Shown piece by piece: positions 13,854-45,422 of a stretch of DNA of 64,000 nucleotides (position 1 is its first letter; each line of letters opens with the position of its first letter). The notes below the pieces were generated by a model, which saw only the letters and a list, made by a program, of their open reading frames with translations, had not been told where the DNA came from and searched no databases. Source of the DNA: Rhizopus arrhizus (lineage: Eukaryota; Mucoromycota; Mucoromycetes; Mucorales; Rhizopodaceae); the NCBI GenBank assembly GCA_024220505.1, contig JAKZZE010000013.1:806001-870000 (forward strand). Direction: 5' to 3'. A program made the position numbers and the translations under genes.

Positions 13854-15009
13854 TGTGAGATTGGAGTTTGTAAGGTTTTTATAGTGTTAAATAGGTTTGA
13901 TTTAAGAGAGTCTTGATATAATATCAAAGGTTTAGGTAGGATTTGATTCCAAAAAGAGTAATGATTTGAATATAAGTTCGCTTGTAATAAGTGACCACCA
14001 GATCTTGTTAAGTAGATCAAACTGTTGCGAATAAAATAAAGTAAAAAGATAAAAAAAAAGGGATTACAATGAAGTGTATTTGCTTCAAGGGACTTCTTGT
14101 TCTTGATATTTGATAAAATAAAAGAAAAACAAAAGAGATTTACTTTGTATGATATTTATTAAAATAATCAAAAGTAAAGTAAGTAAGTGAAGTAAAATAA
14201 AAGTAAGTTCAAAAGTAAGTAAGTAAGTCAAGAGTAAGTTAAAAGTAAGTAAGTTTTAAAAAGTATAAGAAATATTGAAGTTATTTATATGTTTTTGGCT
14301 TTTCTGATTATATGCTGTTTTTGATGATTTTGTGGATATTCTGTATTTTTTTGTATTTTTCTGGATTTATCTGTATTCATACTGTAATAAATTCTTACTA
14401 GTTTGCTTGAGTGTGTTGAGTTGAGGTTTAAATAAACAGATTTAAGTTGTAATTGGTATAATAATTGCTTTTATATGAGTTGGATTGGCTTGATTCGCTT
14501 GTTATAGTGACCACCAGATCTTATAAAGTAGATCAAACTGTTTTAGTTAAGGTAGAATAAAAATAAAAAGATAAAGTAAAATAAAAAAGGGGATTTACAA
14601 TGAAGTATAATAGCTTCAAGGGACTTCTTGTTCTTGATGTTAAATAAAATAAGAGATAGTTTGCCTCTTTAAAAGAATATTTATTTGATAAAAAGAATAA
14701 GTAAAAATAAAATAAGAGAGAAGTTAGGAAGTTAGAAGTGAAGTCCTATTTTTTGAGATTATTATGTGAGGTTATTTATATGTTTTTGGGTTTTATGATT
14801 TTGTTCTGTTTTTGGTATTTTGAATGGTTGTTATAACATAAGAGGCGGTTGTTGTAAACTGCAAGGCGTTCGTTATAAACTGCAACGATTTAAATTCCGA
14901 CGTTTCATTCCTGTTTGTTACAATACGTATTTGTTTGTATTTTCCTGGATTTGAATTAGTTGGAGAGAGAAAAGTCAAATGCTGCAAAAGTTTGCTGCGT
15001 TGTGTTACA
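13854..15009 (-). repeat. 5' LTR of the gypsy element, split by a solo LTR
   Basis: Borders TGTGAGATTGGAG and TTGTGTTACA. After removing the nested LTR (14,383-14,922 plus one ATAC) it is about 612 bp, like the 590-bp partner. Its right edge lies 41 bp from the 3' end of the tRNA-Ala gene, and the first T4 run downstream of that tRNA straddles the junction (15,009-15,012). Confidence 0.8.
14383..14922 (-). repeat. Solo LTR nested in the gypsy LTR (TSD ATAC)
   Basis: 540 bp, TGTAATAAATTC to TTTGTTACA, flanked by ATAC on both sides (14,379-14,382 and 14,923-14,926). The partner LTR at 971-1,560 shows the uninterrupted site. It has the GTGACCACCAGATC motif at 14,507. Confidence 0.85.
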
Positions 15010-15050
15010 AAAGAACACCGTGAATTCAATTCATGATTAATGTGATACCT

Positions 15051-15123
15051 TGGAGAAGCTGGGCGTCGATCCCAGTGCCTCTCGCATGCTAAGCGAGCGC
15101 TCTACCATTTGAGCTACATCCCC
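15051..15123 (-). tRNA. tRNA-Ala (anticodon AGC)
   Basis: 73 nt that fold as a cloverleaf. The acceptor is GGGGATG with CTTCTCC (one T-T mismatch), the D arm starts GCTC, the anticodon arm is CTCGC-TTAGCAT-GCGAG, and the T arm is CTGGG-ATCGACG-CCCAG, with A73. A and B boxes are present. The gene looks functional despite a LINE directly at its 5' end and an LTR 41 bp past its 3' end. Confidence 0.93.
15110..15123. repeat. 14-bp tRNA segment duplicated at insertion junctions
   Basis: TGAGCTACATCCCC, the antisense of the first bases of tRNA-Ala. The same 14 bp recur at 19,987-20,000 (after the LINE), 20,533-20,546 (after the SINE-like unit) and 33,463-33,476 (after LINE copy 2), each directly after a TCTTTAACC tail. 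This is read as the target-site duplication of the LINE machinery. Confidence 0.75.
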
Positions 15124-15312
15124 ACCTTTCTTTCGCTCTTCCGACCGTTACACAAGGTATAGTACGCGTAATCAACTTTGAACTCAAATATCTCTGCGAA
15201 TACGATACATCCATCCACCGTTTTAACACCAAAATAATCGTCGTATTTTTCTCTACAAACTATATTTTTTTCAACTCGATTGCTGTATTTTTCACCATTT
15301 TCGACATTTCCC

Positions 15313-16317
15313 ATGTCTCAACAATCTGGCTCCCCCATTTCGCTCATCTCGCAAGATGGAGTGGCAAATGTCAACATTCCAAACCCTTCTGACATGCAAC
15401 AAGCTTTGCAATATTTATTGCACAACTTCCAAACCCTCCAGCAACGTGTTTCAACACACGATGACTTGTTTGCTGAACTGACTGCTTTACGCAGTGAAAA
15501 TGCTACTTTGAAGGCGAAAATCGCCTCGCTTGAAGCTCAAATCTCCGCTGGCGCTGACGTCAACAGTTCTTCCGCTTTTTCCTCTTTGGCTTCCGACCCG
15601 GCATCCATACGTGCGCCCCAAAATGCACCCCAAATGAACAATGCAACCTATAGTGCTATTGCTGCCAAGGCTGCTGCTACTACTGCTACTACTACCCGTC
15701 GCCCACCTAGCAAGAAGCGAAAGCTTGCTGCTAGTCGTCCATTCCAACCAGTTGACCCTTCTGCTCCTCGTGGTTTTGAATACCTGTACCTGCATAGAAA
15801 CCGCAAGCTGTCCCGTGCTGAAATTAGACGCAACCTGCGTTTACTTGGTCTTGATCTTTCCCGTGTCTTGGACATCTGCTTCCCTGGCCCAAAGGCCATT
15901 GGTCTCTTGGTCCACGTTCTTTATAAAGAAGAGGTGATCTCTCTTCTCTCTGCTGCCAAGGTTCCGTTGGTTGATGGTTTTGATCCTCTGGATCCTATCA
16001 ACTTGGCGGATCCTGAGCTCCAGCATCTTTCGTCGGCTGACAAGGCTAATGAATGTGCTGAGCTCCAGTTCACTCGCTGCTCCCGTGCTCTCTCTCGTCT
16101 TGGTGCTGGCCGTGCTCATCTAGTGGGTCCCGTAGGTAAGTACTTTTCTTCTAAGGGTTGGATCGATGAGGACTCTTTGAGTCAGATTCTGTCTTCCCTT
16201 CCCCCTTCCTCTTTTGCTTCTCGTGGTCGTGACCCAGGCGCTGCTTTCCGTGGTGACACGGTCATGTCAGATGCTTTGGTCTCTGATTCCGCTAGTGCTG
16301 GATCCCACTCATTATGA
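15313..16317 (+). CDS. LINE ORF1 protein (334 aa), coiled-coil RNA-binding type
   Basis: I start at ATG 15,313 (MSQQSGSPISLISQDG), because the second copy begins at the equivalent ATG; an in-frame ATG at 15,280 is less likely. Residues about 35-80 are a leucine-rich heptad region (LTALRSENATLKAKIASLEA), which should form a coiled coil. Residues about 115-140 hold a basic RRPPSKKRKL stretch, a possible nuclear signal. The C-terminal half (RGFEYLYLHRNRKLSRAEIR onward) is conserved in copy 2 but is not a domain I recognise, and there is no CCHC knuckle. By analogy with other LINEs it should bind the RNA and help form the RNP. It ends in an ATGA overlap with ORF2. Confidence 0.88.
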   Translation: MSQQSGSPISLISQDGVANVNIPNPSDMQQALQYLLHNFQTLQQRVSTHDDLFAELTALRSENATLKAKIASLEAQISAGADVNSSSAFSSLASDPASIRAPQNAPQMNNATYSAIAAKAAATTATTTRRPPSKKRKLAASRPFQPVDPSAPRGFEYLYLHRNRKLSRAEIRRNLRLLGLDLSRVLDICFPGPKAIGLLVHVLYKEEVISLLSAAKVPLVDGFDPLDPINLADPELQHLSSADKANECAELQFTRCSRALSRLGAGRAHLVGPVGKYFSSKGWIDEDSLSQILSSLPPSSFASRGRDPGAAFRGDTVMSDALVSDSASAGSHSL

Positions 16318-19300
16318 GTGAGGTCCAACACCTTTCTATAAGCCTTTGGAACGCGAATGGTCTTCGGACCACGACCGTTCATGAGGTCTTGTCTCATTGT
16401 CTCTCCTCTACTCTCCTTTTCATCACCGAGACTTGGCTTCTTTCCCCTTCGCTCCTTCCTACAGACTGGATGCAGTATCATGTGTATGGTGTTCCTGTAC
16501 CTTCGGCCAACCGTGGTTCGATGGGTGTTACTGCTCTGGTCTCTCCTTCTTGTCCCTTTCCTGTCTCTCAACTTCCTTCAGCGAATCGGTATACCCTTTC
16601 GTTGAAGGTCGGACCCTTTCGCATTCATTGTTTGTATGTTCCTCCTCCTCTTTCTACCTCAGAATTTATTAATGTACTTTCCTCCATCCCCTCCTTACCC
16701 AATTCTTTCATTTGTGGCGACTTTAATGCTCGTCTTGGTGACCTCACTGGTGATGCATTGGTCTCTCCTCGTGGTGCTGCTATGGCTCGCTGGCTTGCTG
16801 ATCGCTCCTTGACCGTTCTGAACGGCCCACTGGCTCATGGTATTCCTACCTGGGTCGGGTTTCGTGATGATCGAGAGATGAGTAGCATCATTGACATGTT
16901 TCTAACAAACGCGTCATTGATGTCTCCTCGCCTTGACATCGCGTCTGACTTGTCTCTTGGTTCTGACCATCGTCTACTTACGCTGTCATTTTCTTTTGCT
17001 CAGTCAAGTGCCTCTGAGTCAATGCCTGATACATCTGATACAACACTACATCCTCGTCGACTATGGAACTTGTCTCGCCTTGGTGAACCTGATCCATGTC
17101 AACTCTATCAAGATACCTTTCGTTCGTTTTCTGCTCCTTTGCTTTCTCAACTGAAGAGGTTGGTTCAACACCCTCCTTCTTCACGTCCGCCTATTGACGA
17201 CCTCAACGCGTCGCTCAACAACATAATCTATCGTTCTCTTGACTCTTCTGTCGGTGATCGTCCACCTCGTCCATCCCATTGGAAAAAGTACTGGACACAA
17301 CAACTGCAAGATGCTGCTGACTTCCGCAACAGGTGCTACCGTAGATGGCGTCGTGCCTTTGGCATTGACAAAGTCTATTGGTGGCATCAACATCAACAAG
17401 CAAATGTTTCTTTTCGTCAAGCTGTTGCCAATGCCAAACGTCTCTCTTGGCAAGCATTTTGCAAGTCCCTTGAGTCTGACTTTACGAAAGCCATATCCAA
17501 AGTAAAGCAGCTTAAACGTCGTCATCTCACATCATGCTCTTACACTCATCCTGATGGTCCGGCTACGGCAGTGGAAGTAATGGCTCGTCACTTGGCTTCT
17601 GTCTATGATGGTCACTTGCTTCCATCTGTCCGTCCGCCTGCTCCTCCTGATTCGTCTTCTCTTGGTTTGCCCTTTGGTCCTCCTGGTTCGTCTCCTTTGG
17701 TTGTCTCCCCTGGTGCTGCTACTCATACTTCTTTGTCTACAACTCATTCCACTCATTTCAACACTTCACTATTCTCGCCTGCAACATTGGCTTTACTTAT
17801 CGGTCAACTGCCTACGCGCAAAGCTCCTGGTGCTGATCACATCAAGGCCGAGATGCTCAAGCCGATCAGTACTGACCTGTCATTCATTCTTTCCTGGTTC
17901 TTCACTCTATGCTGGCAATGGTCCTATGTTCCTTCTCTCTGGCGACATGCTCAAGTTTATCCTATCTTCAAGAAAGGTGATTCATCACTTCCCTCAAACT
18001 ACCGTCCTATCTCACTTACTTCTGTATTCCGCAAGCTACTTGAGCTGTCGCTCTCTCCATGGTTGTCCTCTGTCTCTCCTCCTCTTGACCTCGCTCAAGG
18101 TGGTTTCCGTCCTCGTCGATCTGCTCTAGATCAGGCTCTGTGTCTACATGAGCTAATACAATCGTACTACCGTCGATCTCATCGATTTCCTGTGGTAGCA
18201 TTCCTAGATATCAAGTCGGCCTACGATACCGTCGACCGGCGTGTTATCTGGGATGCTCTCTCTCGCTCTGGTGCTGGTTCCTCTTCTTGTTTGCCTCTCT
18301 TGGTCCATCTCTTTGATGATGTCTCGGTGTCTGTCTTGGTGTCAAATCACTCGTCCGCTCCTTTTTCTCCTGTCACCGGTGTCCTGCAAGGTTCTGTTCT
18401 CAGTCCTCACTTGTACTCGGTGTACATCAACACTCTTCCTTCTCTCCTTCGTCAAGTCGCTGCTCCTGCCACTCATTTGGTTCCCTCTTCTGGTTCTGCT
18501 GATGCTGGTATGGTCCCAGTCAACTCTCTCCTCTTTGCTGACGATGTCGCAGTCATTGGCTCGGCAAAGTCAGTCAAAGAGATGCTCAAGCTCTGTGAAC
18601 AACACTCGCTGTCTCTGGGTTATCGATGGAACCCAACAAAATGTGCGGTGCTCAACCACCCACCATTGTCATCTTCCTCGTCTTCCTCTGATCGCCTCCA
18701 GTTGTACGATACTCCTCTGCCTTTGGTAGATGAGTTCGTATATCTTGGAGTGCCCTTCGTCAAGTCTGGTCTCTCTGCTCCCTCCTTGGTTTCTCTCCGG
18801 TCTCCTGGTGTCCTCAAGGTCATGGCTATTCTGAACAAGATTGGTGTCAACCGTCAAGGTTTCTCTCTGCTGCTCTGCTCTCGCCTGTATGCTACCTTTG
18901 TTCGCCCGAAGTTTGAGTATGGCCTAGCCATATCTCGGCTGACGGCAACTGACCTCAAGTCTATTGAAAGCTTACAAGATCGCTGTCTCCGTCTCTTGGT
19001 TGGTGGTCATCGTACCTCGTCTACTATTATTATCAAGCACATTACAACACTGCCATCCATGCGCCATCGCATAGATGTGCTTGTCACTCGTTACTGTCTT
19101 CGTGCCCGCTCTCTTCCTAGATCTTGCCTGCTGTCTCTCTTGTCATCAACACTGCCTGTCTCTCGAATCAAGATCCATCTTGAAAAGAATCCGCTTTTCT
19201 TGGCTCTGCCTTCTCCTCTTCCGTCCTCCGATGCTCGGCTCAAGACCTTCTTTCGCCAGTATCGTGAGCGTCAGGTCATCTCTCTCGTCACCTCCACTAC

Positions 19301-19718
19301 TCAGGTTCTCCTACGCGCATGTCGCCCTGCTCTGGTGGTTGATCCCATCTTATACGTTCCTGCAACCCGTGCAGAACGCTCTCTCTTGGTTCGTTGGCGT
19401 CTTGGCTGGCTGCCAGGTAAGCCTGAAGACTGTCCTTGTGGACGTGATCGTCGCTCTCGTCGTCACTTTCTCGAGTGTGATTTGATCCCGTCTTTCCTTT
19501 GGTCTGACCTTCCTCGCTGTCCTCCTGGGTCCTACCCTATAGACTTTGCTCTTTCCTCGTTGCCTCTTGGTCGCTCAGCTCGCTGTCCTCCTTGGTGGTC
19601 ATCTCTCTTGTTGATGCTCTGGCATATACAACGTCTGTGCCGTCCTGATAGGAATCTTCCTATTGACTCTTCTCCTGGTGCCTTATGGTATTCAAGTCCT
19701 TCTCGTAGCCCTGACTGA
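16314..19718 (+). CDS. LINE ORF2: endonuclease and reverse transcriptase (1,134 aa)
   Basis: The apurinic-like endonuclease at residues about 5-230 shows SLWNANGLR, ITETWLL, CGDFNARLGD, DMFLTN and GSDHRLL. The RT at about 500-800 shows KKGDSSLPSNYRPISL, GGFRPRRSALDQA, FLDIKSAYDTVDRR, GVLQGSVLSPHLYS and the catalytic LLFADDVAV. The C-terminal zinc motif CPCGRDRRSRRHFLEC is C-x-C-x8-H-x3-C-like. No RNase H is evident. It nicks the target and primes cDNA there (target-primed reverse transcription). It is uninterrupted. The ATG overlaps the ORF1 stop (ATGA), which suggests coupled reinitiation. Confidence 0.95.
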   Translation: MSEVQHLSISLWNANGLRTTTVHEVLSHCLSSTLLFITETWLLSPSLLPTDWMQYHVYGVPVPSANRGSMGVTALVSPSCPFPVSQLPSANRYTLSLKVGPFRIHCLYVPPPLSTSEFINVLSSIPSLPNSFICGDFNARLGDLTGDALVSPRGAAMARWLADRSLTVLNGPLAHGIPTWVGFRDDREMSSIIDMFLTNASLMSPRLDIASDLSLGSDHRLLTLSFSFAQSSASESMPDTSDTTLHPRRLWNLSRLGEPDPCQLYQDTFRSFSAPLLSQLKRLVQHPPSSRPPIDDLNASLNNIIYRSLDSSVGDRPPRPSHWKKYWTQQLQDAADFRNRCYRRWRRAFGIDKVYWWHQHQQANVSFRQAVANAKRLSWQAFCKSLESDFTKAISKVKQLKRRHLTSCSYTHPDGPATAVEVMARHLASVYDGHLLPSVRPPAPPDSSSLGLPFGPPGSSPLVVSPGAATHTSLSTTHSTHFNTSLFSPATLALLIGQLPTRKAPGADHIKAEMLKPISTDLSFILSWFFTLCWQWSYVPSLWRHAQVYPIFKKGDSSLPSNYRPISLTSVFRKLLELSLSPWLSSVSPPLDLAQGGFRPRRSALDQALCLHELIQSYYRRSHRFPVVAFLDIKSAYDTVDRRVIWDALSRSGAGSSSCLPLLVHLFDDVSVSVLVSNHSSAPFSPVTGVLQGSVLSPHLYSVYINTLPSLLRQVAAPATHLVPSSGSADAGMVPVNSLLFADDVAVIGSAKSVKEMLKLCEQHSLSLGYRWNPTKCAVLNHPPLSSSSSSSDRLQLYDTPLPLVDEFVYLGVPFVKSGLSAPSLVSLRSPGVLKVMAILNKIGVNRQGFSLLLCSRLYATFVRPKFEYGLAISRLTATDLKSIESLQDRCLRLLVGGHRTSSTIIIKHITTLPSMRHRIDVLVTRYCLRARSLPRSCLLSLLSSTLPVSRIKIHLEKNPLFLALPSPLPSSDARLKTFFRQYRERQVISLVTSTTQVLLRACRPALVVDPILYVPATRAERSLLVRWRLGWLPGKPEDCPCGRDRRSRRHFLECDLIPSFLWSDLPRCPPGSYPIDFALSSLPLGRSARCPPWWSSLLLMLWHIQRLCRPDRNLPIDSSPGALWYSSPSRSPD

Positions 19719-19985
19719 AACCCTTCTTTGTCTGTCTCCTGCTGATCCCCCACGGAAGTAAAGCCATCAAAGTTCCTTACCGTTGGGTTGTGACAGTAGG
19801 TCAGCTAAGTTGTGGAAGTAGGCAGCAAGTCTCATCTTTTTTCTGTAACTTTTTTTTGGAGTTTTTCTGTTTCTCAGGCTCCTTTTTTTGTACTTATTCT
19901 TATTCTTTGTACTTGAAGATGCAACAATGACTTTTTAGTCGCCTGCAATATATCTTCGTAATTAAATAAAAACAAAATCTTTAAC

Positions 19986-20021
19986 CTGAGCTACATCCCC
20001 GGGGATGTGGATGTAGCTCAG
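19986..20021. repeat. 13-bp inverted tRNA-head palindrome
   Basis: CTGAGCTACATCC and its exact inverse GGATGTAGCTCAG, separated by ten bases. The left arm belongs to the LINE-side target copy and the right arm to the SINE-like tRNA head. The same structure is at 20,532-20,567; at 33,462-33,482 only the left arm and GGGGATG remain. Confidence 0.8.
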
Positions 20022-20532
20022 TCGGTAGAGTGTCTGACTATTATTGGTGTGGTCGCAAGTTCGACCCCTGATAGGATCTTTGGATCTATCCCTTCCCTGC
20101 CCCTCTACATGTTCTCTTTGCCTAGTGCACCAAGCACTTTTGTTTCTCCGCCTGTGTGTTGCGTTGCGTAGCAGCTGAGTATCTGCCTACTTTCCTTCCC
20201 TTTCGGGGGACTTTGGTGTGCGCTCTTGACGATAATACTGGTTTTAACGCCACTGCTGTTCTGGTCGGTTGGTCTGCGTTGTTTGTTTGTCGAGCGTTGT
20301 TGGTCCGCGGTGCCGGGATGCCCAGCCCTGGCTTAATGAAGCGCGTTCTGTTCTGCCTCAAGTCTTCGTCTCTGGTTCCAGCTCCCCCCAATATTAATTC
20401 GTTCCTTCTTTCTCCCTTTCCCTCCTCCCCCATAATAGTTTGTATGCTTTCCAGTTTATCACTGTGGATAGCAATAATGGCATATTTGCCGCCTGCAATT
20501 GTCCAATAAAAATATAAAAAAAATCTTTAACC
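20001..20532 (+). mobile_element. tRNA-derived SINE-like element with LINE-type tail
   Basis: The head (20,001-20,070) holds TAGCTCAGTCGG, a perfect Pol III A box, and AAGTTCGACCCC, a near B box. The anticodon arm does not pair well, so it is not a working tRNA. A body of about 440 bp follows with no credible protein. The last 65 bp (GCCTGCAAT, an A-rich stretch, then ATCTTTAACC) resemble the LINE 3' end, and the 14-bp target copy follows. Sharing of 3' tails is how SINEs use a partner LINE. An alternative is a 5'-truncated divergent LINE next to a tRNA pseudogene. Confidence 0.65.
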
Positions 20533-20546
20533 TGAGCTACATCCCC

Positions 20547-20603
20547 GGGGATGTGGATGTAGCTCAGTCGGTAGAGCGTCTGACTATTATTGGTGTGGTC
20601 GCA
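20547..20603 (+). mobile_element. Second SINE-like head, truncated
   Basis: It repeats the first 57 bp of the unit at 20,001 (A box TAGCTCAGTCGG, one base different in GAGCG versus GAGTG) and stops at GGTCGCA, where a CACTG-type transposon end begins. The B box is lost. Confidence 0.7.
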
Positions 20604-22437
20604 CACTGCACCCAATCCCTATATTCTAAATTATTATACTTCGGGTGTTTTAACAGTTGAACTTCGAATAAAATAATACAAATTTGAATTTGCAGGATAG
20701 AGATATAATATTTGTATCAAAAAAAACCTAGAAAAAAATATATGTTATTTCTATAACGATATGTATATGTTTATAATCTGTATATTGAATAAAAAGAAAT
20801 TGTATTTCTTGTAAAAAAATTTTTGTCTCTTTTGTACTACATGAATCCATGCAAACTTATAAACTGGGAAAATGAAAAGTTTTCAAATTCAGTGTATGAT
20901 TTTTTAATTTCAACAAAGGTCAATGAAGTAAATCCATTGGACTGTAAGCTCGGAAATTTAACTGCTTGAGCTGCGACCTCCTCTTGCCAAGCATACTCGA
21001 TTTGCTATACTGCAAAAAAAAGAAAGTACATAGTACATCTACCCAAAAAAATAATTTTGTAGGTTTATAATGAAAAGATAGAGAGCAACATTACTTAAAT
21101 TGTGAAAGGGAACATGAGTTCGATGCTTTTATCCAACGAAGAGTAAAATTAATTATTTATAATTGAAATAAAAGAATGGTCTATAGGGAAGTAATAAATA
21201 TAAACGTTAAATAAAAGATAAAAGCTAGAAACAAAAATGAACAAGGAAAAAGGAAAAAAAAAAAAAGAAAAAAGAAAAAAGAAAAAAGAAAATGGTATTT
21301 CTTTTTTTGACCGTAAGGAAAATAGCATCTATCAAAGATGATAGTGCAATGTTTAAAGGACTAAAGCTAAGCAGAAAATAGAAGGGTATGGGTTTGGTAA
21401 TCATTTTTATTTTTAATTGCAAAAAGAAACAACAATATTAACATCAAGTGAATTTACATGTCTTGAGATTCCTTATAACAGAGACTATAAGAAAGAGTTA
21501 TTGTTAATGAAATAAAATAGAACATTTTGATAGATTTAGAAAAAAAAGAAAGTGATGTTGAAATTAGAGAATTGCAATGTCGGAATTACTTGCATGTCAA
21601 AAAAAAGCAATGTTGGAATTACGTGCATGTTAAAAAAAAGAATGTTAAAAGTGACATTGCAAAAGAATACTTACTTTTACAAATTGTCTTAAGTTGAACA
21701 AACCTACTTACAGGATCTTCGTTTTATTCATAGAGCATACAGAGACTTACTTTAGGTTATAGAAAGCGGTTTTAGAAATTGCACTGAAATTGGAAATTTT
21801 TTTTGATTAAGTACTTTGAAAAAAAAAAATCTAGCTGAGACGTCAACTACAAATGTTTTAATTCATTTACCTTTGTGTGCTAATTACAATTTATTATTCA
21901 GTATGTATGCCTTTATTTATGAGCTTTTTGTCCTATCTTTGATAAAGAATATCATCACTTTGCCTTTTTTTTTTTTTTCTTTTTTTTTGGATTACCGCAG
22001 TACACTTAACTAAACTCCATCATTTCTTTTTTGTAAAGTAGTGCACTTATGTAAACTAATCAATATAATACTGAATATGATGGGAAAAGATTCAAATATC
22101 TTATCACAAAAGTTGAATTGATTTTACTCGATGAAAAATTTATTCTTGTTTAGCGGCACTTGTATAATGTCGGTAATGTAACAACATCAATTGAAACTTG
22201 TTCTTCCTCTGGAACTTCAAACTGAGTATTAAAGATTCTTATTGTTTGATTTTGGAGCTGTATATAAGGAGTTCATAAAGCGACATATCAATTGTATAAA
22301 AGTTTTTGTTGTATTTATACAAAAAGTAAATACTCATAGATAAATTTAATACTACTGAATTACAGTAAAACTATATCTCTATAAATAAATATGAGACCTC
22401 TGCAATGATCACCTTTGATGTATTGTTCATATCGGTA
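20604..22437. mobile_element. CACTA-like 5' terminal region (non-coding), copy C
   Basis: It starts CACTGCACCCAATCCC and is nearly identical over about 1.83 kb to 48,888-50,728, which leads into a Tnp2 transposase gene. Similarity ends after CATATCGGT. No coding sequence is visible: AT-rich DNA with A and T runs and GAAAAAA repeats (21,253-21,290). The right end is missing. Probably a deletion derivative or a truncated copy of the Tnp2 element. Confidence 0.65.
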
Positions 22438-23712
22438 GAGCTAGGATTACGAGCATTGACAGGTGCAGGGTTGAATTCGATAATACGGTCAGACATATTG
22501 ATATAAGGTACTTTGAAGGAAAAGTAAAGAAACTTAACATTGAAGCTAGATACATTTTAAATACTATTGCGTTGAATTGTAAACTCAGTTCTATTCAAGT
22601 CAAAAAATCTATAAAAGGATTGATGTCTCAGATGAATCTTTTCTTTTCTTTCTTTCTTTTTTTTTGATTTGTTATCCCAGGTAAGTCTCTCTTTTTTTAA
22701 ATTTTTTTTTCTAATGTTCTTTATTAAAGATTTATAGATATGCTCATGGCTATCATAAGCTCTTGAGTCTTTCTGTATCTGTTTATGTGGTAAGTATGCT
22801 CTTAAACCTTCATTATCTTTATTAACAATCAAATTTAGTTTTTTAGGCTTGATTCTGAAGCTGTTTGAATAGTTTGGCATCGTCTTCTGGTTTTGAAAGA
22901 GGTTTAATGTAAGAAAATCGGGTACATCATGTTTCACTGTAATTAATCTTTCATTTTATCTAGCTTTGACTCTACTTTCCTCCTGCTTAGTCTACTGTCT
23001 TTATCTTTATATTGCTTTTGATCTCTTTTGAGGCTGCTTCATTGTATTTGTTTATTTTGCCTGATTTGTCTGCTATATTCTATTGTTTGATGCTTCTGAG
23101 GTCAAGGTAAGTGCAATTTTGAAAAAAGAATTTTTTTTTGTATCTACCGTTTAAAGATGATGTTTCATTATTCCCATAAATTCCCTGCTCCCCCCCCCCC
23201 TCTTTTTTTTTAAAATCATATTTAATAATCAAATGAACCAATAATATATAATCAATATGGCAAAAGAGCCCAAAAATAAATGAATAAAACCACATTTTTG
23301 ACCAATAATACTGTATTTTAAGCCTATTGTTTTCCTAATACAAATCATCCAGAGCTATATATAATCATAATAAACCAATAAGAAAGTATTGTGAAAAGGC
23401 AATAAGCCAATAAAGAAGTAATATTAAAGAGAAATAGACCTATAAGGAAGCTTTGCTAAAAGGCTATAAGCCAATAAAGAAAGAGCATCAAAGAGAAACA
23501 CAAGCATGTAAGGTCCAATGGAAAAGCGTTATGTTTGTGTAGAATCGTAGAAAGAACAATGAAGCGGCGCGTCACCAAAAGTAACACGGTATTTTATATA
23601 CATATCTTAACATTTCGAGCAAAATATACGAAGTACATATTTTATGGAATCTGTAAATATATTGACGTAAACCCGAAATATCTCATTATATTCTGTCAAA
23701 TATAATGCTATA
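22438..23712. other. AT-rich region without a recognisable gene
   Basis: Only short low-complexity frames (for example a Lys/Asn-rich frame on the minus strand at 22,557-22,937). It contains repeated ATAAGCCAATAAAGAAG-like units (23,370-23,480) and homopolymer runs (C10 near 23,192). I see no domain, tRNA or transposon end. Confidence 0.5.
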
Positions 23713-23714
23713 TA

Positions 23715-25351
23715 CAGTAGGTGAAAAAATACGAGCAACCTCTGTTCGATTTGTCTTCATATCTTTTTATTTTCGTGTGTACATTCGCCAGAGCTTTGAT
23801 GTCACACAAACTAATTAAGACAACAAAGATACATACAATACACTAAAGAGATTGACTCTACTTGAAGTACAAGCTTTTTAAAAAGGGAAAGACAGTCATA
23901 AAAAAGCCAATGATGATTTTTCAAAATTCGCTATGTTAATTTAATATTTTCTATATCTTCCCTTTGCTTTAAATAGTGCTTCTACTTTGGCTGGCATACT
24001 ATTGATGTACCTCTTGCAAGCATTTGCATTGAGTTTATTTCGCTCTACATCCACAAATGGCTAAAGCTTTCTGACACCTCTTTCTCCGACTTCATGTGGT
24101 GTCAGATTAAGTTTGAGCTGATGCCAAACATGCTTTATATGATTTAAATCCAGACTTTGAGCATACCAATAATTTATATACCTTACACTGATACCGCGTA
24201 CCTATGGAGTTATGAATTTTAATTTATACTTTACGCCGCTATCACTCTGAAGGTATACATCAGACGTCTTCAAATAATGGTACTCTAACGTATTCATGTA
24301 AATAATGCTAAGTATATGCAGACAAGCCGTTGAGTTTATGTTACCACCATAAAGCTGACATGTCTAAGCTGGTCCCGGAGTAGCTATGTGACCGCATATG
24401 TTGGTCCTACGGCTGCAGTGCTTTACTGTAATGTCGATGTGATGAGGGAGCAAAATGTCATTTGATACTACCCCATAGTATTTTACTCCATTTGATCACT
24501 AGATGCTAATCTTTGCTTCAGCTGAGAACGCTACTGGTCGTCACTCTTGACTTGACCAGTTGCGATGCCTTTTTGCTCAGGCCATCTGCTTTTTTCAATG
24601 ATCCTTTTTTAAAAATGCCTTCTTTTTTTTAGCCCTCGGTGGCGCTTTATGGATCTCAGCGCATTTACTCCTGAACGGTACATCAACAAGTAACCAAACT
24701 TACCTAAGTCCCTGAATAGTTCATTCGCTATTGTTCGATGACCAGTAATAAGACACAGCTCGATATAGTGCTTCATGGCAGAAGAGACAACAGCATGTCT
24801 TCCAGCAGACAGGTGTGAATTTCATGGAAAAAGCTTCCTAGTATATCTTTTAACTGTGCGAGAATGAACGTAATATTTATTTGTAATATCCTCTAGCTTC
24901 ATGCTATTTAGTGATATATCTTTTATTTCTGGATTGCTTTTCCATTGGTATAGATTTAGGCATGATGATGAGAAGTAGTGAGAGAAGTTGAGTAAAAAAA
25001 AAGAAACCAAGGGCTCCTGAAGTCGCACTTGCTTTTATATGAATACAATAAGGAACACTCACAGTTCCATACAAGTACGCTATATAGTCTTCTGATATGT
25101 TCTTTGTTGACTTAAATGTAAACGTATGATTACCGTACATAATTTAAGCTGTTCGGAAGTCAAATTTTTAAATTCGGATTCTCATTCCTCTCTCAATTTC
25201 CAGTATTGCTACATGAGACCTTTACTGTTTCAAGACACATGACCCCGAAAATATACCATAGGAGCCCCAAACCGGTAGTTGGCATGCACCTTTTGATAAA
25301 GTGAAAAAAGTCGATTTTGCCAAAAGGTTGCTCGTATTTTTTCACCTACTG
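23715..25351 (-). mobile_element. Tc1/mariner element D, decayed
   Basis: 1,637 bp, ends CAGTAGGTGAAAAAATACGA and the inverse, flanked by TA. It lies just upstream of, or within, the 5' end of LINE copy 2. Confidence 0.85.
23944..24966 (-). pseudogene. Tc1-D transposase, many stops
   Basis: Recognisable from an N-terminal MPKSIPMEKQSRNKRYITK near 24,966, through an AGRH-like linker, to a C-terminal SMPAKVEAL-like segment near 23,970. Between them, stops and frame changes interrupt the SDE..W, FQ.D.D and LDLN regions. It is clearly older than the other Tc1 copies here. Confidence 0.75.
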
Positions 25352-25508
25352 TATATAGCAATTATGTGCAGTGTTGAACTCGATTATCTCGCTCAATACA
25401 ATACATCCATCAACCGTTTTAACATCAAAAAATTCGCCTATTTTTTCTCTACAAAATATATTTTTTTCCAGCTAAAAACTTTACTTTTGAACATTTTCGA
25501 CATTCACC

Positions 25509-26513
25509 ATGTCTCAACAATCTGGCACTCCCATTTCGCTCATCTCGCAAGATGAAGTTGCAAATGTCAACATTACAAACTCTTCTGACATGCAACAAGC
25601 TTTGCAATATTTATTGCACAACTTCGAAACACTCCAGCAACGTGTTTCAACACACGATGACTTGTTTGCTGAACTGACTGCTTTACGCAGTGAAAATGCT
25701 ACTTTGAAGGCGAAAATCGCCTCACTTGAATCCCAACTCTCCGCTGGCTCTGACGTCAACAGTTCTTCCGCTTTCTCCTCTTTGGCTTCCGACCTGGCTA
25801 CCATACGTGCGCCCCAAGATACACCCCAAACGAACAATGCAACCTACAGTGCTATTGCTGCCAAGGCTGCTGCTACTACTGCTACTACTACCCGTCGCCC
25901 ACCTAGCAAGAAGCGAAAGCTTGCTGCTAGTCGCCCATTCCAACCAATTGACCCTTCTGCTCCTCGTGGTTTCGAATACCTGTACTTGCATAGAAACCGC
26001 AAGCTGTCCCGTGCTGAAATTAGACGCAACCTGCGTTTACTTGGTCTTGATCTTTCTCGTGTCCTGGATATCTGCTTTCCTGGCCCAAAGGCCATTGGTC
26101 TCCTGATCCATGTTCTTTACAAAGAAGAGGTGATCTCTCTTCTCTCTGCCGCCAAGGTTCCGTTGGTTGACGGTTTCGATCCTTTGGATCCTGTCAACTT
26201 GGCAGATCCTGAGCTCCAGCATCTTTCATCGGCTGACAAAGCTAATGAATGTGCTGAGCTCCAGTTCACTCGCTGCTCCCGTGCTCTCTCTCGTCTTGGT
26301 GCCGGCCGTGCTCACCTAGTAGGTCCCGTAGGTAAGTACTTTTCCTCCAAGGGTTGGATCGATGAGGACTCTTTGAGTCAGATTCTATCCTCCCTCCCTT
26401 CTCCCCTTTCTGCTTCTCGTGGTCGTGACCCAGGCGCTGCTTTCCGTGGTGACACGGTCATGTCAGATGCTTTGGTCTCTGATTCCGCTAGTGCTGGATC
26501 CCACTCATTATGA
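25509..26513 (+). CDS. LINE ORF1 protein, copy 2 (334 aa)
   Basis: Same length and layout as the copy-1 protein: leucine-rich coiled coil, RRPPSKKRKL basic stretch and the conserved RGFEYLYLHRNRKL region. Substitutions are scattered with no stops. It overlaps ORF2 by ATGA at 26,510-26,513, exactly as in copy 1, so the overlap is conserved. This copy can still make ORF1 protein although ORF2 is disrupted. Confidence 0.88.
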   Translation: MSQQSGTPISLISQDEVANVNITNSSDMQQALQYLLHNFETLQQRVSTHDDLFAELTALRSENATLKAKIASLESQLSAGSDVNSSSAFSSLASDLATIRAPQDTPQTNNATYSAIAAKAAATTATTTRRPPSKKRKLAASRPFQPIDPSAPRGFEYLYLHRNRKLSRAEIRRNLRLLGLDLSRVLDICFPGPKAIGLLIHVLYKEEVISLLSAAKVPLVDGFDPLDPVNLADPELQHLSSADKANECAELQFTRCSRALSRLGAGRAHLVGPVGKYFSSKGWIDEDSLSQILSSLPSPLSASRGRDPGAAFRGDTVMSDALVSDSASAGSHSL

Positions 26514-29189
26514 GTGAGGTCCAACACCTTTCTATAAGCCTTTGGAACGCGAATGGTCTTCGGACCACGACCGTTCATGAGGTCTTGTCTCATTGTCTCT
26601 CCTCTACTCTCCTTTTTATCACCGAGACTTGGCTTCTTTCCCCTTCTCTTCTTCCTACTGACTGGATGCAGTATCATGTGTATGGTGTTCCTATACCTTC
26701 GGCCAACCGTGGTTCGATGGGTGTTACTGCTCTGGTCTCTCCTTCTTGTCCCTTTCCTGTGTCTCAACTTCCTTCACCAAATCGGTATACCCTTTCGTTG
26801 AAGGTCGGACCCTTTCGCATTCATTGTTTGTATGTTCCTCCTCCTCTTTCCAACTCTGAATTCATTGATGTACTTTCCTCCATTCCTTCTCTTCCCAATT
26901 CTTTTATCTGTGGCGACTTTAATGCTCGTCTTGGTGACCTCACTGGTGATGCATTGGTCTCTCCTCGTGGTGCTGCTATGGCTCGCTGGCTTGCTGATCG
27001 CTCCTTGACCGTTCTGAACGGCCCACTGGCTCATGGTATTCCTACCTGGGTCGGGTTTCGTGATGATCGAGAGATGAGTAGCATCATTGACATGTTTTTA
27101 ACAAACGCGTCATTGATGTCTCCTCGCCTTGACATCGCGTCTGACTTGTCTCTTGGTTCTGACCATCGTCTACTCACGTTGTCTTTCTCATTTGCTCAGT
27201 CAAGTGCCTCTGAGTCTTCATCTGATACTCCTGATTTCACTCTACATCCTCATCGACTATGGAACTTGTCTCGCCTTGGTGAACCTGATCCATGTCAGCT
27301 GTATCAAGATACTTTTCGTTCGTCATCTGCTCCATTGCTTTCTCAACTGAAGAGGTTGGTTCAACACCCTCCTTCTTCACGTCCGTCTATTGACGACCTC
27401 AACGCGTCGCTCAACAACATTATCTACCGCTCTCTTGACTCTTCTGTCGGTGATCGTCCTCCTCGTCCATCCCATTGGAAAAAGTACTGGACACAACAAC
27501 TGCAAGATGCTGCTGATTTCCGCAACAGGTGCTACCGTAGATGGCGTCGTGCCTTTGGCATTGACAAAGTCTATTGGTGGCATCAACATCAACAAGCGAA
27601 TGCTTCTTTCCGCCAAGCTGTTGCCACTGCCAAACGTCTCTCTTGGCAAGCATTTTGCAAGTCGCTGGAGTCTGACTTTACGAAAGCCATCTCTAAAGTA
27701 AAACAACTCAAACGTCGTCACCTCACCTCATCATCATTCACTCATCCTGATGGTCCGGCTACGGCAGTGGAAGTAATGGCTCGTCACTTGGCTTCTGTTT
27801 ATGATGGTCACTTGCTTCCATCTGTCCGCCCGTCTTCTCCTGATCCGACTTCTCTTGGTTTGCCCTTTGGTCCTCCTGGTTCGTCTCCTTTGGTTGTCTC
27901 TTCTGGTGCTGCTGCTCAAATTCTTACATCTACTGCTCATTCCGCTCATTTCAACACTTCAATATTCTCGCCTGCAACATTGGCTTCACTTATCGGTCAA
28001 CTGCCTACGCGCAAAGCTCCTGGTGCTGATCACATCAAGGCCGAGATGCTCAAGCCGATCAGTACTGACCTGTCGTTCATTCTTTCCTGGTTCTTCACTC
28101 TATGCTGGCAATGGTCCTATGTTCCTTCTCTCTGGCGACATGCTCAAGTCTATCCTATCTTCAAGAAAGGTGATTCATCACTTCCCTCAAACTACCGTCC
28201 AATATCACTTACATCTATATTCCGCAAGCTACTTGAGCTGTCGCTCTCTCCATGGTTGTCCTCTGTCTCTCCTCCCCTTGACCTCGCTCAAGGTGGTTTC
28301 CGTCCTCGTCGATCTGCTCTAGATCAGGCTCTCTGTCTTCATGAGCTAATACAATCGTACTACCGTCGCTCCCATCGGTTTCCTGTGGTGGCATTCCTGG
28401 ATATCAAGTCGGCCTACGATACCGTCGACCGGCGAGTTATCTGGGATGCTCTCTCTCGCTCTGGTGCTGGTTCGTCTCCTTGTCTGCCTCTCTTGGTTCA
28501 TCTTTTTGATGATGTCTCGGTGTCTGTCTTGGTATCAAACCATTCTTCTGCTTCCTTCTCTCCTGTCACCGGTGTCTTGCAAGGTTCTGTTCTCAGTCCT
28601 CACTTGTACTCGGTGTACATCAACACTCTACCCTCCTTACTTCGTCAAGTCGCTGCTCCTGCCACCCATTTGGTTCCCTCCTCTGGTCGCTCTGATGCTG
28701 GTATGGTCCCAGTCAACTCTCTCCTCTTTGCTGACGATGTCGCAGTCATTGGCTCGGCAAAGTCAGTCAAAGAGATGCTCAAGCTACAGTAGCGGACAAA
28801 ACTGGTGCACAAAAATTAAAATCAACATTGTATCTCCGCCATATGTCTGCGACTTTTGTGGCATATACCATCTGAAAGACAGTCCAAAATATACATTATG
28901 TTATGTAAACCGGAACTGTGCCGGACATCCCCCAGGCATAAGGTCATTTTTAGTGATTTTTTGCATATTTCAATTTTCGCCAAAAATGTAGTGCTTGTCT
29001 AGCCTTCTTTCAATTTTCCCCATATCTCTCCCGTTTGCTTTCAGATTTCACAGCATATTAGTAAATTTTAGTAGCTCTTAAAAAATATATAAAACTGTAC
29101 TTATTTTGTATTTCCCATTGAGTCCCCCCTTTTGTTTTTACCCTATTCACTATAACAAAGTATTAGCCTTATATGTTTAAGAAAATAAG

Positions 29190-30180
29190 CAACTGTAAAA
29201 ACGAAACTCTGAGATCTCGAACACGCCTAGTTCGTACGACAGCAGATATTTCTAGAGTAACAAGGATCTCTAAATGGACAATCAACAGGAGAAAGAGGGA
29301 AGAAAGAAACTTAATGTCTTGTGATCATGAAGGTATTCCGCTATTAGCCTGAAAAGTTATTAGTTCAGTCATCAACCTAGAGCTTGGACAAGATCCGCTA
29401 CACACAGTTCCTGATGCTCAGCACATTTTGAGGACCTTAAGATACAGTGTTAGCAGACTGTCAGTCTAAAGGCACAGTAGGAAGCTAGATTTTGAGTCCG
29501 GAAGTAAGGAATCGAAGAATTTCATCAGCTGTATAAGTCGGAAAAAGCGATGAATGTGGTATCACAACAAGCCATTGTATACTATAGAGGGCTGGAAGTC
29601 TGCTATCTTTAGCAATGAAACAAATATGAACATTATGGATGCAGATAGTATACACTAATATTGAAAGCAAGTCGAGCAACCTGAGCGATTTTTTCACGGT
29701 GATCAAACAATGAAGCATGCTGGCTGCTCTGTTATGTTTTAAGGCTGTATTAGATATTGAGGACCAGAATATGTGTGTCAGGTATACGATGGTATAATGA
29801 ACTCATAAATATACACATATATTTCGCTTACTTCATACCACAAAAGCCTAGCGTATAGTGGTCTAAAACGTCGTAATCTCTCGTTTCAGTATGACAATGA
29901 CACAAGGCACAAGTCAGCGCATGTCACAAACTCAATATTTGATAACAGCGCTTCTGTGCTACAAGTTTAGCCGCCACTAATCCCGGCCTAAGTCCGCTTA
30001 AGCATGCCAGGTCGCAATTGATGGCAAAGGTATGATGATACGACACTAGATCAAAAAGGGTCGATGATCTTTGGAAAAGAGTAGTTAAAGAGCCGGGTTC
30101 TTTTATTGAAAATGATATACACGCATATTATTAGCATATGCAAAGAAGAACATCCGATGATATCAAGAGATGAGATGATT
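29190..30180 (+). pseudogene. Tc1-E transposase, many stops
   Basis: Clear but degraded relative of the intact 328-aa transposase at 9,564-10,550: TTADISRVTRISKWTINR at about 29,230, FDNETNMNIM-like remains of the first catalytic region near 29,610, and QYDNDTRHKS near 29,888. Stops are frequent. Its host LINE is nearly intact, so this element was either already dead when it landed or has decayed faster. Confidence 0.75.
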
Positions 30181-30290
30181 ATATAAAGTCTAAGGTCTTA
30201 GCCACTTTTGCGGTTTTTAGAAAATATAAAATTTTATAAATTTAAAGCACGCTTATCGCTCAGTTTTAACAATGTCATGCTTAGAACATA

Positions 30291-31945: not shown

Positions 31946-33476
31946 TACATAAATTACAATGACTAGTATATCCTCCTTCTAGTACAGTTTCATGACTATT
32001 GCAACTACCATGAGCAGGTAATGGTAGTTAAAAGCTGAAAAAAAGTTTTGTGCACCAGTTTTGTCCGCTACTGTATGTGAACAACATTCGCTGTCTCTGG
32101 GTTATCGATGGAACCCTACAAAATGTGCGGTGCTCAACCACCCACCATCATCTTCTTCCTCGTCCGATCGCCTCCAGTTATATGATACTCCTCTGCCTTT
32201 GGTGGATGACTTCGTATATCTTGGAGTGCCCTTCGTCAAGTCTGGTCTCTCTGCTCCTTCTTTGGTTTCTCTCCGGTCTCCTGGTGTCATCAAGGTTATG
32301 GCTATCCTGAACAAGATTGGTGTCAATCGTCAAGGTTTCTCTCTTTTGCTCTGCTCACGCATCTATGCCACCTTTGTTCGCCCGAAGTTTGAGTATGGCC
32401 TAGCCATATCTCGGCTGACGGCAACTGATCTCAAGTCTATAGAAGGTTTACAAGATCGCTGTCTTCGTCTCTTGGTTGGTGGTCATCGAACATCTTCCAC
32501 CATTATCATCAAGCATCTCACTACCTTGCCATCTATGCGCCATCGTGTAGATGTGCTTACAACTCGCTACTGTCTTCGTGCTCGCTCTCTCCCTGCTTCT
32601 TGCTTGCTGTCTCTGCTGTCGTCAACATTACCTGTCTCTCGTATACAAGTCCATCTTCAAAAGAATCCGCTTTTCTTGGCTCTGCCTTCTCCTCCTCCGT
32701 CCTCCGATGCTCGGCTCAAGACCTTCTTCCGCCAGTATCGTGAGCGTCAAGTCATCTCTATCGTCACCTCCACTACCCAGGTTCTTTTACGCGCATGTCG
32801 CCCTGCTCTGGTGGTTGATCCCATCTTATACGTTCCTGCTACTCGTGCAGAACGCTCTCTCTTGGTTCGTTGGCGTCTTGGCTGGCTGCCAGGTAAGCCT
32901 GAAGACTGTCCTTGTGGACGTGATCGTCGCTCTCGTCGTCACTTTCTCGAGTGTGATTTGATCCCATCTTTCCTTTGGTCTGACCTTCCTCGCTGTCCTC
33001 CTGGGTCCTACCCTATAGACTTTGCTCTTTCCTCGTTGCCTCTTGGTCACTTAGCTCGCTGTCCTCCTTGGTGGTCATCTCTCTTGTTGATGCTCTGGCA
33101 TATACAACGTCTGTGTCGTCCTCATAGCTTCTATGCTATTGACTCTTCTCCTGGTGCCTTATGGTATTCTCGATCTTCTCGTAGCCCTGACTGAAACCCT
33201 TCTTTGTCTGTCTCCTGCTGATCCCCCACGGAAGTAAAGCCATCAAAGTTCCTTACCGTTGGGTTGTGCCAGTAGGTCAGCTAAGTTGTGGAAGTAGGCA
33301 GCGAATCTCATCTTTCTTCTTTATCTTTTTTTTGGAGTTTTTCTGTTTCTCAGGCTCCTTTTTTTGTATCTTATTCTTATTTTTTTGTACTTGAAGATGC
33401 AACAATGACTTTTTAGTCGCCTGCAAATATCTTCCTATTAAATAAAAACAAAATCTTTAACCTGAGCTACATCCCC

Positions 33477-33886
33477 GGGGATGTTGTTGTCGTAGCAAAA
33501 CGTAGATTTGTTCCAACTCCACGCCAAAGACCTTCTGGAACCTTAAAAAGGAAAGCGTCATTAAATGTCTTGAAGTTGCGTTTTGCACATAGCTCAAAGA
33601 ATATCACGCGCCCATTGGCAAAGTACAGAGACCGTCGTACAAGTAACCATGGTAACTTGACCGCAGCAATGAACCGCAGCAATATGATTATTTTAGGAAG
33701 TCATAAGACCATTATGAAAACATATAAATACTCGTTATTATTTTAAGAAAATAAACATTATCTTTTACAAGTTCAAATAATTCTTTTATTAACTTATACA
33801 AACTATTATTGGTTGGCTTTCCCTCAAGCACGACATTGTTGTGTAGAGCACCAACAGACAAATGTAGACGAGGATAGATATAAGGT
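33477..33886. other. Unidentified segment after LINE copy 2, ORF tail
   Basis: It begins GGGGATGTTGTTG directly after the 14-bp target copy. A plus-strand frame without its own start runs from 33,480 to TAA at 33,746 (about 88 codons; basic, with AKRRFVPTPRQRPSGTLKRK and KYRDRRTSNHGNLTAAMNRS). I do not recognise it. It could be the end of a gene or element cut off by the LINE. The remainder to 33,886 is AT-rich. Confidence 0.35.
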
Positions 33887-44862: not shown

Positions 44863-45422
44863 TGTGAGATTGTTAGGCTTTCGGGTTTAAGTAGGTTTGA
44901 TATAAGTTTTTGAGACAAAGTTTTGATAATTGAATAAGGTATCGGACAAAGTAATATCCAAAAAGAGTAGATAATTTGAGTTGTAAGTTCGCTTGAGTAG
45001 AGTGACCACCAGATCTTGTTAAGTAGATCAGTCTGAATTGAATAAAAGTAAAATAAAAAGATGAAAGATAAAAGATAAAATAAAAAAAAGATTACAATGA
45101 AGTATATGATTCAAGGGATTATTAGTTCTTCCTATTTATAAAATAAAAGAAGTATTTTGTTTCAAAGGAGATTTATTTGGATAAGGTAAGATAATAATAA
45201 TAATAATAATTCTTGATAAATTGTTGATATTTATATGTTTTTGGTTTTCTTGATTATGTGATGTTTTTAGATTTTTGTGTTTTCCTTTGAATTGTGAATT
45301 TAGTTGAGTTATTCAATGTCATTGAGTTTATCAAAAATATTGAGGACATGAACTTAGTTCAGGTCCGAACTTTCTTCGTCAAGTGGTACAGTTTGATTGA
45401 AAAAATTTCTATTTTCGTCACA
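44863..45422 (-). repeat. Solo LTR (TSD TTAC)
   Basis: 560 bp, TGTGAGATTGTTAGG to TTTCGTCACA, flanked by TTAC on both sides. The GTGACCACC motif is at 45,002. An ATA trinucleotide run lies at about 45,192-45,208. Confidence 0.85.

Follow-up and report, generated by a model that had tools for sequence, protein, structure and literature searches.

The tRNA-Ala locus and its inserted elements

The window analysed here is a stretch of 64,000 nucleotides from Rhizopus arrhizus (C5:806001-870000 of a genome of 50.3 Mb in 41 contigs, which are C-numbered in the following). It contains an intact tRNA-Ala(AGC) gene on the minus strand and a series of inserted elements that start directly at the 5' end of this gene and point away from it. 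The series consists of a long interspersed nuclear element (LINE), the 14-mer TGAGCTACATCCCC, a short interspersed nuclear element (SINE) of a family termed SINEa, a further TGAGCTACATCCCC, the first 57 bp of another SINEa, a DNA-transposon-like sequence, a second and split LINE, and TGAGCTACATCCCC once more (Table 1). An earlier note on this DNA had described the same order up to the second SINE-like head; the description holds, and the series runs past 20603 to a fourth exact 14-mer (33463-33476), at which LINE no. 2 ends.

As the note had also recognised, the 14-mer is an exact match to the antisense of nucleotides (nt) 1-14 of the tRNA-Ala. With up to two mismatches allowed, it is matched six times in the window compared with 0.22 expected matches, and six were reached in none of 100 shuffles, which excludes chance. 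The recurrence of the 14-mer behind one and the same tail is likewise borne out, given that the exact tail ATCTTTAACC occurs at 19977, 20523 and 33453 and directly precedes the 14-mer in all three cases. The tail alone is not rare (eight window matches with up to one mismatch, 7.8 expected), and for the tail by itself chance is not excluded.

Judged by its predicted protein, the element is an APE-type non-long-terminal-repeat (non-LTR) retrotransposon, that is, a LINE, with APE endonuclease and reverse transcriptase in one open reading frame (ORF2). The Pfam scan of ORF2 returned PF14529 (E 4.9e-10, above the cut-off), PF03372 (E 8.6e-5, just below it) and PF00078 (E 1.3e-22), neither RNase H nor a restriction-like endonuclease, and no other nuclease family at E 0.1. 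ORF2 contains the strings WNANG, TETW, GDFNAR, SDHR and FADD, which we take to be its catalytic motifs. A fold model of moderate quality (mean predicted local distance difference test score, pLDDT, 66.5; predicted template modelling score, pTM, 0.46) has human LINE-1 ORF2p as its best match in the PDB, and LINE-1 endonuclease structures match as well. A search of PDB sequences with ORF2 gave nine matches, all to reverse transcriptases of R2 and LINE-1, while the endonuclease part alone gave a single match to a ribosomal protein (E 0.19). Scanning viral contigs for ORF2 produced three pattern matches, none of them a confirmed relative. ORF2 is complete and open in 32 of the 41 copies scored among 1,193 candidates. 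Among the matches listed, it is at most 96% identical to partial Rhizopus arrhizus proteins, 85% identical to a full-length R. stolonifer protein and 46-53% identical to Mucor proteins, which do not bear the name Grem-LINE1.

Table 1. Features of the element series in the window (window positions).
Feature	Position	Strand	Basis or remark
tRNA-Ala(AGC), intact, array anchor	15051..15123	-	ARAGORN 15050-15124; ends from comparison with other copies
14-mer TGAGCTACATCCCC, antisense of tRNA nt 1-14, target	15110..15123	+	match inside tRNA
Complete LINE no. 1 (4,863 bp) with two open frames	15124..19986	+	sequence comparison
ORF1, 334 aa from the ATG common to the second LINE	15313..16317	+	no Pfam family over cut-off
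ORF2, 1,134 aa, APE-type endonuclease and reverse transcriptase (predicted)	16314..19718	+	Pfam; fold-model matches
LINE 3' stem-loop, structure common to SINEs	19915..19957	+	
LINE tail ATCTTTAACC	19977..19986	+	
14-bp target duplication TGAGCTACATCCCC	19987..20000	+	
SINEa, 532 bp	20001..20532	+	tRNA-like head ~20001-20068 (by eye), stem-loop 20466-20504, tail 20523-20532
14-bp target duplication TGAGCTACATCCCC	20533..20546	+	
Second SINEa, first 57 bp, broken at 20604	20547..20603	+	98% identical to first SINEa over 57 bp
LINE no. 2, same family, ~93% identical, first 54 bp gone	25374-28785 + 32076-33462	+	split by Tc1-type element
14-bp target duplication TGAGCTACATCCCC after LINE no. 2, fourth exact copy	33463..33476	+	

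The 14-mer and the tRNA genes across the genome

Elsewhere in the genome the same tail is found in front of different 14-mers. TGAGCTACATCCCC, TGAGCTAAGCGACC and TAAACCAAGAAGCC are the antisense of nt 1-14 of tRNA-Ala(AGC), tRNA-Ile(AAT) and tRNA-Pro(AGG), respectively, as assigned by ARAGORN and the flanks. In a first set of 30 loci, taken from 47 matches fetched by similarity to the LINE end and the SINE, one of these 14-mers follows 40 of the 44 TCTTTAACC tails. The other four tails are followed by TGGACCATTGAGGA (twice, L011 and L025), by TTAACCATCCGCGC (once, L024) and by TGAGCTA joined to a Tc1-type end (once, L028). By eye, TGGACCATTGAGGA, which occurs 11 times in the genome, resembles a tRNA-Glu start. 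The SINEa copies at L011 (C8:1226517) and L025 (C8:1236356) end before it, and at L011 the Pro 14-mer stands in front and TGGACCATTGAGGA behind, so that the two flanks disagree.

On a map of 311,561 distinct bases, from which five tail-matching strings without an element tail around them were omitted, there are 86 exact Ala, Ile or Pro 14-mers. Of these, 22 lie in tRNA genes, five of which were assigned on the little sequence left before a stretch ended. The other 64 directly follow a tail, which in two cases has one changed base, and none of the 86 lies outside a tRNA gene or a tail junction. Conversely, 52 of the 58 mapped ATCTTTAACC tails directly precede one of the three 14-mers, and neighbouring 14-mers on the same strand are of identical type in 44 of 46 pairs. 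Because the 14-mer varies by locus and matches the tRNA at the head of its array, it does not belong to the 3' untranslated region of the LINE; by its flanks, TGAGCTACATCCCC is a target-site duplication and not a part of the element. Duplication combined with 3'-anchored insertion, as expected of a LINE, is seen in like flank pairs and in the presence of 5'-truncated copies, and the use of one exact site in a multicopy gene, which marks a target-specific LINE, in the mapped tails at nt 14/15. The earlier note had asked for this check of the tail copies and had named mostly unrelated 3' flanks, or a 14-mer fixed in the 3' untranslated region, as outcomes that would speak against it; neither appeared.

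A genome-wide census of AATCTTTAACCT, which requires a T after the tail, gave 115 strings, 100 of them with listed places, compared with 18 for the reversed control. The T is followed by GAGCTAC in 20 strings and by GAGCTAA in 76; five further strings have the Pro 14-mer, one has TTAACCATCCGCGC and six have a base other than G after the T, which leaves seven. Five of the six non-G strings were read and judged to be chance matches and one was not read; the remaining seven comprise two Glu-like starts, two LINE-like tails without a tRNA start and three strings neither listed nor read. Two of the searches behind these counts did not require a leading AA, and the sums agree for the 100 listed places.

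By these junctions, the targets are tRNA-Ala(AGC) and tRNA-Ile(AAT), together with tRNA-Pro(AGG), the latter mainly for a second LINE family. This Pro LINE inserts in the same mode at tRNA-Pro and has a different tail (TTCGTC), which precedes the Pro 14-mer in eight of eight mapped cases. Its protein fragments (L011, L015) are ~53% identical to ORF2 and ~78% identical to R. delemar RO3G_05927.

Arrays of such insertions are widespread. Among the listed places, a tail spacing of ~4.86 kb recurs in C3, C9, C12, C18, C24 and C31. The Pro 14-mer occurs 50 times in the genome; 49 occurrences were grouped, and of the 41 steps in these groups 17 measure 4.95-5.05 kb (LINE size) and 15 measure 500-570 bp (SINE size). 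Each array head that was read is an intact tRNA gene, in agreement with the earlier proposal that the duplication is renewed and the tRNA left whole; in C9, for instance, a tRNA-Ile is followed by three LINEs and SINEs. All seven tRNA-Pro genes read have an element at the 5' end (six with a LINE or SINE, plus L014), and three further Pro 14-mers picked as candidate heads are tail junctions. A tail is located within 7 kb on the 5' side of nine of the 11 tRNA-Ala genes (26-nt match); the other two have a SINEb head (C40) and unassigned sequence (C29) at the 5' end. For tRNA-Ile (27-nt match), six of nine genes have a tail within 10 kb on this side. The gene at C24:212100 adjoins unassigned sequence, with the next tail 17.8 kb off, and the element abutting tRNA-Ile opens, in both C3 and C14, with letters unlike the standard LINE. 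In two places, tRNA genes occur as pairs whose arrays point outwards from a common core: C11:54664-67283, with a 12.5-kb core filled with an LTR-type element, and C24:133669-212100, with a core of ~78 kb.

Other sequences interrupt or border the arrays. In the window, a sequence with the end CACTGCACCCAAT starts at 20604, where the second SINEa breaks off, and the stretch 20604-25373, with CACTGCA-type ends, fills the gap up to the broken 5' end of LINE no. 2. Ends of a similar type, CACTGCAAATAAT, interrupt SINEs in L019, L024, L025, L028 and L054. A Tc1/mariner-type element (28786-32075, with a DDE_3 transposase frame at 30541-31572 on the minus strand) lies inside LINE no. 2, and its end, CAGTAGCGGACAAAACTGG, recurs in L028, where it interrupts a 14-mer. 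After some 14-mers (33477-33886, L009, L053, L055) there are sequences beginning with GGGGATGTTG or AGGTATG, which are neither the LINE nor one of the two SINEs and perhaps represent further passenger families or old flanks. LTR-like sequences flank tRNA genes on the 3' side, both in the window (14494-15009 and 44863-45422) and at the C11 and C9 loci, at distances of ~41 bp (window tRNA-Ala), 75 bp (C11), ~145 bp (C9) and ~670 bp (a tRNA-Arg). In the accessible part of the Rhizopus oryzae genome paper, Ty3 elements, not LINEs, are tied to tRNA genes (PMC2699053).

Insertion, array growth and SINE passengers

LINEs and SINEs have a common 3' end, as expected for SINEs mobilized by a partner LINE: the tail is identical and the stem-loop equivalent. 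A three-helix stem-loop lies upstream of the tail in 58 of the 63 3' ends inspected; judged by eye, three of the remainder deviate from it by a base or two and two have lost it. The outer helix reads GAAGAT/ATCTTC in the LINE, GGATA/TATCC or GGATT/AATCC in the SINEs, GAGTA/TACTC in the Pro LINE and GGTC/GACC in its SINE, and the inner helix occurs as TGACT/AGTCG, TGACA/TGTCG, TGATT/AATCG and TGATA/TATCG. The letters thus differ on both strands of the helices with pairing preserved. In the SINEa head, TAGCTCAGTCGG and GTTCGACCC resemble A and B boxes by eye; ARAGORN predicts no tRNA in this region. Pro sites, too, hold SINEa copies that have the TTTAACC tail and are flanked on either side by Pro 14-mers (C8, C26, C32, C40), and the passengers are therefore not strictly bound to one target.

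The series at each tRNA gene appears to have grown by separate insertions. Eleven LINE-sized units were compared, of which C23_760216 is mostly other sequence. Neighbours in C9 are 93.3, 87.0 and 86.2% identical, compared with 95.6% between C9_1166628 and a C41 copy, and C31_70322 is 97.2% identical to C41_1957083 but 93.3% to its own neighbour. Because neighbours are not nearest relatives among these units, adjacent LINEs are regarded as separate insertions. The 5' junctions also differ among copies (an extra G, an extra C, a missing ACC, truncations). Of the earlier proposal of successive insertions, the separate events have accordingly stood; the proposed order, in which each new copy enters between the tRNA and the previous insert, may be right as the simplest one, but insertion at an internal 14-mer would look alike.

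One junction is informative about the start of the RNA. At C17:330036, a LINE next to a tRNA-Ala and flanked on both sides by the Ala 14-mer opens with the five bases that close the Ile 14-mer, CGACC; this fits an RNA started within the antisense tRNA-Ile of its parent copy. At C41:1963428 the junction reads CGACCGACC, in a copy that ends in the Ile 14-mer and may be recombinant, and at C8:1174215 (Pro) it reads AAGAACGCC, near the end of the Pro 14-mer. Going by this single clean case, or perhaps by all three, transcription of the LINE may begin a few bases into the neighbouring antisense tRNA sequence.

We consider it highly probable that these arrays are the work of a tRNA-gene-specific LINE with SINE passengers, for which target-primed reverse transcription restores the target and lets arrays grow as a queue; the specificity would presumably lie in the endonuclease. 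In this mechanism, the APE-type endonuclease of ORF2 would nick the sense strand of the tRNA gene between nt 14 and 15, within box A, and the freed 3' end of A14 would prime reverse transcription of a LINE or SINE RNA, which the reverse transcriptase would recognise by the common stem-loop and tail. The opposite strand would be cut where the tRNA begins, at a distance of 14 bp from the nick, and fill-in would duplicate nt 1-14, whereby the tRNA gene is rebuilt and the element placed head to head with it. Since the rebuilt gene would be a fresh target, elements would queue up. The earlier note had placed the cut at the tRNA boundary itself; this fits the second cut, whereas the junctions place the priming nick after nt 14, inside the gene.

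Other explanations deserve consideration. The idea that TGAGCTACATCCCC is fixed in the 3' ends of LINE and SINE and matches the tRNA by accident would account for the identical 14-mer after all three exact tails of the window, but elsewhere the same tail precedes other 14-mers, each of them a tRNA start; this refutes the idea, and we give it practically no credence. Nor do we see any real prospect that the tRNA gene is carried as the 5' part of the LINE, for example as a promoter, and moves with it. The 5' end of the LINE does adjoin an antisense tRNA start or 14-mer in every junction read, and, to judge by the CGACC junction, part of the tRNA sequence may be included in the RNA. Yet the arrays read hold one tRNA gene at the head instead of one per element, the 3' flanks of the tRNAs are mostly unrelated between loci (except for the two C11 genes), and none of the copies read supports the idea. 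Growth of the arrays from a single insertion, chiefly through unequal crossing-over or some other kind of tandem duplication that copied the 14-mer along with the unit, has some data in its favour: steps are regular (4.86 and 5.02 kb), the scores of certain copies from different arrays are very close, and recombination would explain the 14-mer switches in C41 and C8. We nevertheless regard it as improbable as the main cause, which is disfavoured by the relationships among neighbouring LINEs in the 11 units compared; moreover, LINEs alternate with different SINEs and the 5' junctions vary between copies. Tandem duplication may also be active in arrays that were not read.

Tethering to RNA polymerase III (Pol III) factors, as for TRE5-A and Ty3, by an element whose endonuclease is itself of little specificity, also appears unlikely, if a little less so. 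Every main target is a tRNA gene, the proposed nick lies within box A, and elements near tRNA genes are described as common in dictyostelids and yeasts in the accessible part of PMC5911963. The junctions are base-exact, though, in contrast to the windows of tens of bases given there for TRE5 and TRE3. In addition, 24 further tRNA-start places (23 of them among 63 scored tRNA hits) share TAGCTCA at nt 8-14 and have other flanks, and none of these has a correctly oriented tail in the 20 kb to its 5' side (for three tails the place is unknown); 22 have no tail at all in this range, and the two tails close to the remaining genes, in C9 and C13, run on a strand that does not fit. There is also no tail at box A of the SINEa heads among the mapped copies. 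Because the 24 places are not targeted, box A alone is not the signal, and sequence reading is favoured over a general Pol III tether; a combination of tether and sequence reading is possible. Complementarity between tail and target was considered by eye as a specificity rule: CTTTAACC resembles the antisense tRNA-Ile sequence CTCTAACC, but TTCGTC has no match to tRNA-Pro.

Several observations weigh against a tRNA-gene-specific LINE or limit its support. The census required a T after the tail and would miss tails elsewhere (although T follows in 58 of 58 mapped ATCTTTAACC strings), and four of its 115 strings were not read. LINE-like tails at C4:1110623 and C28:362169 precede sequence that matches no tRNA start, and the TTAACCATCCGCGC behind the tail in L024 is an unassigned sequence. 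In two of the 46 pairs the 14-mer switches type, from Ala to Ile in C41 and from Pro to Glu in C8. Two tRNA-Ile genes in C25, identical over the 100 bp read upstream, look empty and are the sole candidates for unoccupied sites, and the 26- and 27-nt lists of tRNA-Ala and tRNA-Ile contain no exact match for the head of the arrays in C13 and C18. Finally, the stem-loop sequences, folded one by one, have energies modestly below those of shuffles (z -2.4, -2.1, -1.5 and -0.6). Because the folds are near shuffles and the counting patterns fixed part of the helices, the compensatory letters, and not energy, carry the stem-loop argument.

Significance and comparison with known systems

Site-specific elements such as R1, R2 and Dada often break their target gene or use up the site. 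For the Rhizopus LINE, the length of the duplication exactly rebuilds the tRNA gene, so that the gene would stay whole and the site be renewed. A self-restoring site would explain near saturation, as seen for the tRNA-Pro genes read (7/7), alongside continued growth. With two families that are ~50% identical and have different tRNA targets and many intact copies in one genome, the fungus offers a good system for studying the retargeting of APE endonucleases, and possibly a lead for inserting DNA beside a gene without breaking it.

Grem-LINE1 of Mucor, a Mucoromycotina LINE like the one described here, is pericentric and L1-like (PMC7377519, PMC7763443, both from the accessible parts); the word tRNA is absent from the main text of PMC7377519, and the accessible part of PMC7763443 makes no tRNA link. 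As a tentative and rather doubtful extension, tRNA targeting might be the founding trait of a Mucoromycotina-wide LINE lineage including Grem-LINE1, with the APE endonuclease retuned among tRNAs (Ala/Ile, Pro) and tRNA-nucleated LINE/SINE arrays, tens of kilobases long, forming pericentromeric blocks bounded by fixed tRNA genes. The outward-pointing arrays at the tRNA gene pairs of C11 and C24 would fit such boundaries. Should the Mucor relatives show the same behaviour, tRNA genes would be linked to pericentromeres in fungi without CENP-A.

The published systems are compared here as described in the accessible parts of the cited sources. NeSL-1_TV (tRNA-Pro), LIN15_SM (tRNA-Arg) and LIN25_SM (tRNA-Glu) are non-LTR retrotransposons specific for particular tRNA genes (PMC4640811), as is the Rhizopus LINE; they are grouped there with NeSL-related lineages, which have a restriction-like endonuclease (PMC4640811), whereas the one predicted here is of the APE type. 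The closest published insertion position found is that of NLTR-A of Dictyostelium purpureum, 2-6 bp upstream of the mature tRNA (PMC5006619). It shares APE endonuclease and reverse transcriptase with the Rhizopus LINE, but has an RNase H after the reverse transcriptase, which is absent from the Pfam scan of ORF2, and the accessible description does not mention a 14-bp duplication into the tRNA. TRE5 (40-54 bp upstream of tRNA genes) and TRE3 (40-150 bp downstream) have an oligo(A) end and contact TFIIIB (PMC5911963). Both are two-ORF LINEs with APE endonuclease, reverse transcriptase and zinc finger, and TRE5 lies upstream of the tRNA in the opposite direction, as here. Unlike these, the Rhizopus elements abut the tRNA 5' end, are base-exact at nt 1-14 and end in TTTAACC.

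Dada DNA transposons also insert base-exactly in tRNA genes, and for several of their families the site is at nt 8-13, close to box A (PMC3706591, PMC8869645); they differ from the Rhizopus LINE in their DDE transposase, their 6-7 bp duplication and their position inside the tRNA gene. Dewa, a further tRNA-specific LINE mentioned in PMC3706591, inserts in the tRNA-Leu spacer. R1 and Tx1-clade LINEs combine an APE-type endonuclease with a strict target (PMC4640811) and are, by description and not by tree, alike in this respect, with different targets. In the open-licence literature that was searched, no LINE of a fungus came up that targets tRNA genes with base precision; one may be described in Repbase or in subscription papers. 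As far as these searches show, what is new is the combination of a fungal host, an APE endonuclease, a proposed nick at nt 14/15, a 14-bp duplication that would rebuild the tRNA gene, SINE partners and long arrays.

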